A stretch of DNA of 64,000 bases. Origin: Hyphomicrobiales bacterium. GTDB taxonomy: Bacteria; Pseudomonadota; Alphaproteobacteria; Rhizobiales; NORP267. Below are positions 18,203 through 19,927 of this stretch, in pieces. A model generated the notes under the pieces. It was not told the DNA's origin, ran no database searches, and saw nothing but the letters and a program-made list of their open reading frames with translations. The translations under genes were made by a program, and so were the position numbers. Within the stretch, counting starts at the first letter, position 1. Every line of letters starts with the position of its first letter. Location of the stretch: positions 62,001 through 126,000 of the forward strand of contig JAJFHA010000017.1 of assembly GCA_021775875.1 (NCBI GenBank). The letters run 5' to 3'.

Positions 18203-18351
18203 GTCTGCTGAGTTTCCTCACCCTGCCGCAAAGTGCTGGGAAATGACCATATCAAGCGCCCAGCGTCCAGCCGAAATATGGCAGGAATCAGGACAAGTCC
18301 GTTTGAATGGTCTAGTTTGCCATGGATTTAGTTTGTTTTCCGGAAATTATA

Positions 18352-19281
18352 ATGCCCCAGAACCAAGATGACCCGGACAACCCGGCCAAAAATTTCAGTG
18401 CTTTTGGCCACACAATAGATGTGTCCCGGCCCGCGCCCGGCCTGTATATTGTCGCGACCCCGATTGGCAATCTGGGTGATGTGACCATCAGGGCGCTGGA
18501 AATTCTGGCAGGCGTTGATCGGATAGCCTGCGAAGATACCCGCGTCACCCGGCGCCTGCTGGAGCGCTATGGCATTTTGACGCCGTTGCTATCGTATCAT
18601 GACCGCAACGGTGCAACCCAGCGCCCGCGCCTGCTGGAAAAACTCGCTGGCGGCGCAGCAATTGCACTTGTCAGTGATGCCGGAACCCCGCTTGTCTCCG
18701 ATCCGGGATACAAATTGGTGCGCGAAGCAAAGGAAGCAGGAATCGAGGTTTTTGCGATTCCCGGTGCGTCGTCCGTCATGGCCGGGCTGGTGGTAGCCGG
18801 TCTGCCGACAGACAGATTTTATTTTGAAGGATTTCTTCCTAGCCGCCAACAGGCACGACTTGCCCGGATCAGGGAACTGGCCGGGATCGATGCTACATTG
18901 GTGTTTTTCGAATCTGCAAAGCGGGTGATCAAAACCCTTACTGATCTTCACGCTGAATTTGGTGACCGGGACGCCGTTGTCGCCCGTGAGATCACAAAAA
19001 AATTTGAAGAGACCATCCCCGGCACCCTTGGCGAACTGGCATCCGGGCTTGGTGATACTACTATATTAAAAGGTGAAATTGTGCTGCTGGTCGGCCCCCC
19101 GCCTGACAATGCCGGTGATGGGCCTTCCCTCGACGAAGCATTGAGCGATGCTCTCAAGACCTTGTCGGTGCGCGAGGCCGCAACCGAGATAGCGGATCTG
19201 CTCAATATGCCCCGCCGCAAGGTATATAACCGCGCACTGGAGCTGGCCGGAAAAAGCCCGGACAAAGATGGCAAGGGCTAG
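18352..19281 (+). CDS. rsmI: 16S rRNA (cytidine-1402-2'-O)-methyltransferase
   Basis: Methylates the ribose of C1402 in the 30S decoding centre using SAM. Tetrapyrrole-methylase fold with LYIVATPIGNLGDVTIRAL, ACEDTRVTRRLL, SDAGTPLVSDPG, AIPGASSVMAGL and FFESAKRV. The C-terminal PRRKVYNRALEL is the helical tail domain. Start chosen at MPQNQDDP (GGAAA upstream), giving 309 residues; an in-frame ATG ten codons earlier lacks a ribosome site. Divergent from the LpoA-like gene. Four bases after the stop begins the long RNA element that precedes yraN. Confidence 0.96.
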   Translation: MPQNQDDPDNPAKNFSAFGHTIDVSRPAPGLYIVATPIGNLGDVTIRALEILAGVDRIACEDTRVTRRLLERYGILTPLLSYHDRNGATQRPRLLEKLAGGAAIALVSDAGTPLVSDPGYKLVREAKEAGIEVFAIPGASSVMAGLVVAGLPTDRFYFEGFLPSRQQARLARIRELAGIDATLVFFESAKRVIKTLTDLHAEFGDRDAVVAREITKKFEETIPGTLGELASGLGDTTILKGEIVLLVGPPPDNAGDGPSLDEALSDALKTLSVREAATEIADLLNMPRRKVYNRALELAGKSPDKDGKG

Positions 19282-19284
19282 GGG

Positions 19285-19541
19285 CCAGGCCCATTAATTC
19301 CATTCAATTCTGTTTGTACAGGAGGGTTCGAATGCTGATAAACAAGCGCAAGATCAGGCTGGCCGCCTTATCAAGCATTGTTTGGCTGCAGGCGGATCCT
19401 CCTGTACAAACCCTTCGGGCGGAGCGGATTTGGCCCCTGAGGGCGTTGGAAAAGCTTGAAAACCGCGAGGTTTCCGGCGCTTTCCCACCTTCTCAGATGC
19501 CAAATCCACTTCCGCAGAATGGATGGAATTAATGGGTCTGG
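19285..19541 (+). ncRNA. candidate structured RNA / cis-regulatory leader upstream of yraN-gshB
   Basis: The interval folds into a three-branched RNA by direct pairing. P1: 19285-19312 with 19515-19541, about 27 bp with one bulge and two G-U pairs. P2: 19313-19325 with 19398-19410, 13 bp perfect, enclosing P3 (19340-19345/19378-19383) and P4 (19352-19359/19365-19372). Then a small CCC-TTC-GGG hairpin at 19411-19419. Then a long arm: 19426-19434/19499-19507, 19437-19441/19492-19496, 19448-19455/19479-19485, and an AAACC/GGTTT stem capped by a GCGA (GNRA) loop at 19465-19468. P1 contains both candidate yraN start codons. No known family recognised; RNase P, tmRNA, SRP RNA and SAM riboswitch signatures are absent. 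A short reading frame (19314-19532) runs through it but looks incidental. Confidence 0.6.
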
Positions 19542-19927
19542 ACCCTAATTCTGCACAACGAAAGCGCCGCCGGGCCGAGCGTCAGGGCCGCCGCGCCGAA
19601 TGGCTGGCCGCATGGCGGTTGCGCCTGAAAGGCTACAGAATTCTTGAACAGCGCTTCAAATTACCGATCGGTGAAATCGACCTGATCGCACGGCGGGGTC
19701 AACGCATCGCCTTTGTCGAAGTAAAAGCGCGAAAAGATATTGAAACCGCGCTCACATCTATATCCGAATATCAACGCCGCCGCATCGTCCGTGCCGCCGA
19801 CGCCTGGCTTGCCCGCCAATCCGAACGCGGTCGATTGCCTGACAGTTACGATATTTCTTTCGACATGGTGCTTGTGGTGCCGGGGCACATTCCCTATCAC
19901 TATTCAGGCCAGTTTGATGCCAATTAA
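19523..19927 (+). CDS. yraN: YraN family (UPF0102) nuclease-fold protein
   Basis: A 134-residue UPF0102 protein with a restriction-endonuclease-like core: GYRILEQRF, then GEIDLIARRGQRIAFVEVKARK, containing the E-x-D and E-V-K (PD-(D/E)xK-type) residues. The cellular role is not established; it is often beside rsmI. Two ATGs are possible: 19523, and 19532, which has GGATGGA five bases upstream. Both lie inside the closing helix of the preceding RNA element, so translation should depend on that helix opening. Followed by gshB after 62 bases. Confidence 0.92.
   Translation: MELMGLDPNSAQRKRRRAERQGRRAEWLAAWRLRLKGYRILEQRFKLPIGEIDLIARRGQRIAFVEVKARKDIETALTSISEYQRRRIVRAADAWLARQSERGRLPDSYDISFDMVLVVPGHIPYHYSGQFDAN

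Follow-up and report, generated by a model that had tools for sequence, protein, structure and literature searches.

The stretch of 64,000 nucleotides analyzed here (contig JAJFHA010000017.1 of a Hyphomicrobiales bacterium; hereafter the window) carries rsmI, a palindromic element and yraN in immediate succession (Table 1). A sequence-only reading had described a large structured RNA of 257 bases at 19285-19541. This span was drawn too short; the terminal repeats extend six bases further on each side, giving an element of 19279-19547. Its termini read TAGGGGCCAGGCCCATTAAT...ATTAATGGGTCTGGACCCTA, and the end consensus of the family to which it belongs is TAGGGTCAGGACYCATTAAT. The single open reading frame of at least 60 codons inside the element (72 amino acids, 19314-19532) has no NCBIfam match, and we have rejected the possibility that the element encodes a protein.

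Table 1 Features of the rsmI/yraN locus in window coordinates
Feature	Position	Strand	Remarks
rsmI, 16S rRNA (cytidine(1402)-2'-O)-methyltransferase	18322..19281	+	stop codon now TAG, created at insertion
probable former yraN start ATG, inside the 3' end of rsmI	19268..19270	+	joined flanks read MARANSAQRKRRR...; a relative of the same genus likewise starts yraN within rsmI
whole non-autonomous transposable element (highly probable class)	19279..19547	.	269 bp, TA to TA; boundaries are the terminal repeats common to other copies; further copies in own genome
left terminal inverted repeat, 5' strand of outer stem	19279..19311	+	first three bases TAG form the rsmI stop codon
arm A hairpin	19312..19411	+	perfect 13-bp pairing inside basal 19-bp helix
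mini-hairpin at junction	19412..19418	+	3 pairs in family consensus, with a CG/TA exchange; 2 pairs in the MFE fold of this copy
arm B hairpin	19419..19515	+	its (C)TTGAAA ... TTTCC is the best-conserved motif of the interior
right terminal inverted repeat, 3' strand of outer stem	19516..19547	+	
yraN (UPF0102)	19523..19927	+	
element-supplied candidate yraN start codon	19523..19525	+	second in-frame ATG at 19532

The stretch 19285-19541 folds with exceptional stability, at -143.1 kcal/mol against a mean of -82.2 kcal/mol for 200 dinucleotide shuffles, none of which was as stable (z -13.7); the full element, folded with DNA parameters, gives a z of -10.0. The outer helix and the long arm recognized earlier are both present in the fold. 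So is the perfect 13-bp pairing (TTTGTACAGGAGG/CCTCCTGTACAAA), as part of a longer MFE helix of 19 bp. The loop of the long arm is GCGA in this copy, and its letters differ among aligned copies. The three-branched architecture originally proposed gives way to a four-way one, consisting of outer stem, arm A, the mini-hairpin at 19412-19418 and arm B. Assembly can generate inverted repeats; nevertheless, given the z value and the recurrence of the element across many genomes, named isolates included, we regard a chance palindrome or an assembly artefact as refuted for all practical purposes.

When the flanks are rejoined at a single TA, rsmI ends in ...KDGKG-TAA and an overlapping yraN begins at the ATG at 19268 (MARANSAQRKRRR...). 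In a relative of the same genus (G001), in which no element is present at this position, yraN (MTRSPEHPARRR...) also begins inside the apparent end of rsmI. The element has thus interrupted an rsmI/yraN overlap. The stop of rsmI stays at the same codon, now TAG instead of TAA, and yraN has been cut off from its old ATG. yraN is now probably read from an ATG in the right end of the element, at either 19523 or 19532. Both of these ATGs fall within the 3' half of the outer stem, as had been pointed out before, and it is plausible that their placement in a predicted stem lowers yraN translation.

This arrangement invites the idea of an RNA that regulates the yraN-gshB unit in cis, a riboswitch (the redox or metabolite switch of the sequence-only reading) or a thermosensor, in which the closing helix hides the yraN start. 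The very stable fold and the position of both in-frame ATGs within the stem are in keeping with such a device; the distribution of the element is not. At yraN, the element was absent from all 29 other loci examined, those of the same genus included (29 of the 36 other genomes with an yraN match, with flanks of at most 1.5 kb, some ended by contig ends). The genes beside ten other copies belong to eight different Pfam families, with two lacking a match, and therefore have no common function. Furthermore, the orientation of the element with respect to the gene ending upstream is unbiased at 88:87, counted over the 175 of 308 element ends that have a frame of at least 100 codons ending within 100 bp. 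In agreement with the earlier failure to recognize a known RNA class, no Rfam family reached its gathering score in the window. A search of 19200-19650 at E up to 10 returned four unrelated families (E 1.4 to 5.2), none of them credible, and six loci with other copies gave matches to a neighboring tRNA only. The window contains no tRNA or tmRNA, and a simple scan of 19150-19700 detected no terminator-like or sigma-70 promoter-like site. We consider a regulator of yraN-gshB very improbable.

The second of the two original suggestions was a palindrome that is mobile and bounded by long terminal inverted repeats. It is well supported by dispersed copies, a TA target, ends like those of insertion sequences (ISs) and the element-free junction in the relative. 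The genome itself holds further copies: one is full-length at 82% identity and two are partial, in addition to one arm that matches itself reversed. Shortened or single-ended relics in this genome lie at L003 1493-1653, near L004 1501-1606, and in L117 and L118. Overall, our scans recovered at least 166 records, comprising 162 distinct sequences at 163 distinct sites. Their lengths of 263-282 bp were partly set by the search, the first 44 having been accepted at 260-276 bp and the later 122 at 240-300 bp from a 258-284 bp scan.

Nearly all records belong to Alphaproteobacteria. Paired consensus ends delimit at least 120 stretches in named genomes, including Sphingopyxis, Labrenzia, Sulfitobacter and other Rhodobacteraceae, Thalassospira, Chelatococcus, Phyllobacterium, Nitratireductor and Brucella gallinifaecis, along with Rhodospirillales and Hyphomicrobiales MAGs and one Nitrospinaceae MAG. 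The last of these, OFTM44, is labelled as lying outside Alphaproteobacteria and holds copies of 271-276 bp (L173, L181, L230 and L254), for which either transfer or mis-binning could account. Matches to the element by blastn occurred in 9 of 41 genomes (its own included), and the 20-base end, with at most one mismatch, in 31 of 150 genomes of the order; a reversed-pattern control was absent among the matches listed. When 398 genomes drawn from the phylum were scanned with a strict paired-end pattern, two were hit, both from the class of the window; a sample of 289 from that class gave one hit, in a genome already among those two. These counts are lower bounds, because the window's own copies fail the strict pattern.

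Some genomes are densely populated. In G135, a search with one copy aligned 24 over at least 250 bases at 90-100% identity, counting the query copy, and three more at 72-73%; without the query, the 23 other full-length copies are 90-97% identical to it. Near-identity on this scale indicates that the element has spread recently in G135. A single 3.9-Mb contig of G048 contains 23 copies of at least 250 bases. No plasmid copies were matched by blastn. Four viral contigs from IMG/VR (L082-L085) carry the terminal repeat, with a full-length copy at L084 8315-8584.

The sites that the element occupies share a short sequence context. Once 21 of the 166 records had been dropped for lack of TA at both ends, proximity to a contig end or a duplicate flank, 145 distinct flanks remained, and in 136 of these the TA has a pyrimidine before it and a purine after it (YTAR). 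Being fixed at both ends, the TA could belong to the element instead of representing a duplicated target. An exact single-TA empty site was not obtained for a G135 copy, whose flanks matched different places in sister genomes. The element is also often found at stop codons. Of 308 element ends, 91 supply with their first bases the stop of a frame that has run for at least 100 codons, and frames of this length at element ends fall in the stop-forming phase 92 times, compared with 33 and 25 times in the other two phases. Among the named loci, 104 of the 122 later copies could be classified, and the 20 that lie within open frames were left out. At the remaining 84 sites outside genes (genes being here plain open frames of at least 100 codons, not annotated ones), stop codons were found at 37, compared with 18.6 expected from a tetramer-matched background; none of 20,000 simulations reached 37. 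Because both ends of the element begin with TAG, tolerance of harmless insertions is the simplest reason for this preference. The family illustrates a way for an element to enter stop codons while doing little damage.

ISs with matching ends occur in several genomes. Stretches of 838-869 bp that resemble ISs, in genomes G044, G083, G062 and G134, have ends agreeing with the element consensus at 16-19 of 20 bases (C or T being allowed at position 13), and a 419-bp IS relic in G065 scores 18 and 18 of 20; across all six stretches scored at both ends, the range is 16-19 of 20. Their frames match DUF4096 and DDE domains, five transposase pieces passing the Pfam cut-offs. The second frame of L089 passes the NCBIfam IS5 model (130.7 bits, cut-off 110), and four first-frame pieces give partial matches of 96.9-104.5 bits, below the NCBIfam cut-off of 110. 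In G019, a genome that also has elements, a matching right end adjoins IS5 frames. One stretch of this genome (L086 2-1657) holds IS5-type transposase frames and a further open reading frame of 192 amino acids between matching ends 1656 bp apart, and is possibly an insertion sequence with a passenger gene.

These similarities of end sequence and coding content support an IS5-family partner. Within that family, the IS427 group is the probable partner, an assignment we infer from length and repeats as described for Paracoccus, where ISs of this group measure 832-865 bp, carry 2-bp repeats in all but one case and in some instances have two overlapping frames (PMC3281130). The ends, the TA target and the length of the stretches found here are similar. 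Unlike the IS427-group ISs, the element has no transposase, and no internal similarity was detected.

We consider it highly probable that 19279-19547 is a copy of a non-autonomous, MITE-like family of transposable elements, widespread in Alphaproteobacteria, that hitch-hikes on an IS5-family transposase. It has the features of a MITE: small size, terminal inverted repeats, no transposase, dispersed multiple copies and ends in common with an autonomous element. An IS5-family transposase of the IS427 type would act on these ends in trans. Insertions into TAA or TAG stop codons would leave the protein no longer than before, since both ends begin with TAG, and would consequently survive. In the present case the element would have landed in the rsmI stop codon within the overlap, with rsmI still stopping at the same codon and yraN probably read from the right-end ATG, perhaps less efficiently since this ATG lies in the stem. 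Several observations sit uneasily with the proposal. An IS with matching ends was not found in the genome of the window, where the transposase query gave two weak matches (E 1e-4). In G048, a genome with 23 full-length elements, the same query uncovered an IS with different ends, which we discarded as a partner: an IS5-type insertion sequence present in five copies (L310, L317, L320, L322 and L324) as an identical 859-bp block with ends TAGGTTCAATCGACATTCA / TAGGCTGAATCGACATTCA. The same genome also has an element subfamily with ends like TAGGGTCAAGACTCATTGCT. A variant end from G028, searched for in seven genomes, occurred at the element itself only. Finally, element bodies have no similarity beyond the ends to four of the ISs with matching ends (best E at least 0.03 among the matches listed), so an origin as a shortened IS, by internal deletion, is not supported.

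MITEs are usually regarded as decayed leftovers of insertion sequences. The element is MITE-like and in this respect of a known kind; the unusual part is its conserved, elaborate fold. An RNAalifold consensus of 58 copies less than 85% identical to one another (L229 was left out, its orientation being unclear at a score of -6) contains 62 pairs, 56 of which have changed on both sides in a compensatory manner. Paired cells amount to 91.0%, compared with 34.0-47.7% when partners are slid, and the covariation score is 0.610 against 0.174 for shuffled alignments, with none of 500 shuffles reaching the observed value. The inner part of arm A is outside the 62-pair consensus; single copies fold alike there, and a second consensus includes it with weaker support. 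The motif (C)TTGAAA...TTTCC in arm B is the most conserved internal feature; its (C)TTGAAA half is present at the expected place in all 58 rows with at most two mismatches and doubles as an orientation check. Compensatory changes are abundant, though between dispersed copies and not at conserved rsmI-yraN sites.

The nature of the mismatches argues against a strand-specific RNA. At pairs that are at least 70% Watson-Crick, G-U and A-C cells number 105:116 in the element; RNase P, taken from 30 genomes of the order and handled in the same way, gives 124:22. If every consensus pair is counted, the corresponding figures are 227:180 and 322:37. With paired neighbors demanded they are 69:47 and 135:11, and on this stricter count the element may have a mild G-U excess, which tempers a case that rests on mismatch symmetry. 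The 44 copies used at first, a more redundant set, had given 270:230; arm A leaned towards G-U there and upper arm B towards A-C. The similar frequency of G-U and A-C, taken with the unbiased orientation, favors a fold that is kept as DNA, in both orientations or by hairpin-templated correction. The internal fold probably serves propagation of the element, not host regulation. Across many Alphaproteobacteria, much of the sequence of this family changes while its length varies little and its complex fold persists, without the wobble-pair signature of RNA. The family provides a warning that very strong covariation alone is no proof of a functional RNA.

Complementarity could in principle be kept with no selection at all, if template switching or mismatch repair on a folded strand rewrote one arm from the other. 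The near equality of G-U and A-C (105:116) and the both-sided changes in 56 of the 62 pairs are what such rewriting would leave behind. Conversely, (C)TTGAAA is nearly invariant and unpaired positions recur at the same consensus columns, neither of which would follow from blind correction alone, and we judge this explanation to be unlikely.

It is tempting to speculate that selection acts on the folded DNA strand itself. Single-stranded or cruciform DNA, such as may arise at replication forks, would adopt the four-way hairpin, and this may be needed for transposition or for its timing. GANTC is the methylation site of CcrM, and in the 58 copies the element bodies contain three such sites where 47.1 were expected. 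The motif is depleted in the flanks also (231 seen, 713.7 expected), where it is again the most depleted of 16 motifs compared; no probability is attached to these counts, as related rows are not independent. Position 13 of the terminal repeat, its most variable base, decides whether positions 11-15 read GACTC and so form a GANTC site. Such a site is present at 18 left and 12 right ends, and 23 of the 58 copies have one, the window's copy having none in its terminal repeats. Exclusion of CcrM sites from the body, with tolerance of them at a single switchable position in the terminal repeat, could couple movement to the cell cycle. This suggestion is tentative, and we consider it rather improbable as it stands. 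The element family is well suited for asking, in a natural setting, whether selection acts on the folding of DNA strands during transposition. A match to the IHF consensus was found in just 8 of the 58 copies.

The preferred reading, that of a MITE-like element, places this family beside other alphaproteobacterial repeats. Rickettsia palindromic elements are likewise mobile palindromes of an alphaproteobacterium; they measure approximately 150 bp and many lie in-frame within genes; of the present element, 20 of 104 classified sites are inside open frames. MITEPye1 of Paracoccus yeei is a further alphaproteobacterial MITE with a predicted long stem-loop, and differs in its 4-bp repeats and IS1182-type ends (PMC11578231). 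Br-REP1 and Br-REP2 of Bradyrhizobium are palindromic repeats in 3' UTRs, one of them between convergent genes, whose printed consensus sequences look different from the element by eye (PMC5082802). CcrM-associated intergenic repeats (CIR; Chen and Shapiro 2003) are, according to that title and a mention in a review, alphaproteobacterial repeats connected with sites of DNA methylation. They are a possible relative of the element, 23 of whose 58 copies have GANTC in a terminal repeat. Within the open-licence literature on MITEs with IS5/IS427, alphaproteobacterial palindromes and CcrM repeats, surveyed by title, we found no description of the element family.

Outside this class, the Correia elements of Neisseria share the TA target, and form a simple stem where the present element has a four-way fold. 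Both are short, non-autonomous and equipped with terminal repeats, and they differ in host group and sequence. In Correia elements (CREE/NEMIS), the RNA hairpin is described as being cut by RNase III (PMC10969869). By analogy with these or with REP sequences, the element may work at the RNA level whichever way round it lies, either by forming a hairpin where an mRNA ends or by offering RNase III a target, and its fold may be kept for that reason. Stop-codon enrichment would fit such a role, as would the 62 of 144 loci at which, on each side, a frame of at least 100 codons ends no more than 150 bp away; the equal avoidance seen for G-U and A-C is, moreover, what folding of both strands needs. 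Against this, each insertion would be selected separately, so that host benefit hardly explains one fold across dispersed copies, and the simple scan of 19150-19700 detected neither terminator-like nor promoter-like sites. On balance, action on transcripts is possible but on the unlikely side.

A sign of transcription, which would also fit such a role, comes from a supposed microRNA of Thalassospira alkalitolerans, reported as an 18-nt species with 336 reads and two loci (PMC6413936). Its sequence, AATTAATGGGTCCTGACC, is a piece of the element terminal repeat and lies in T. alkalitolerans loci L189, L214 and L267. As far as these published reads go, the element is transcribed at least sometimes, and the 18-nt molecules may be breakdown products. 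The letters of the terminal repeat also match a primer in an Acidiphilium paper.
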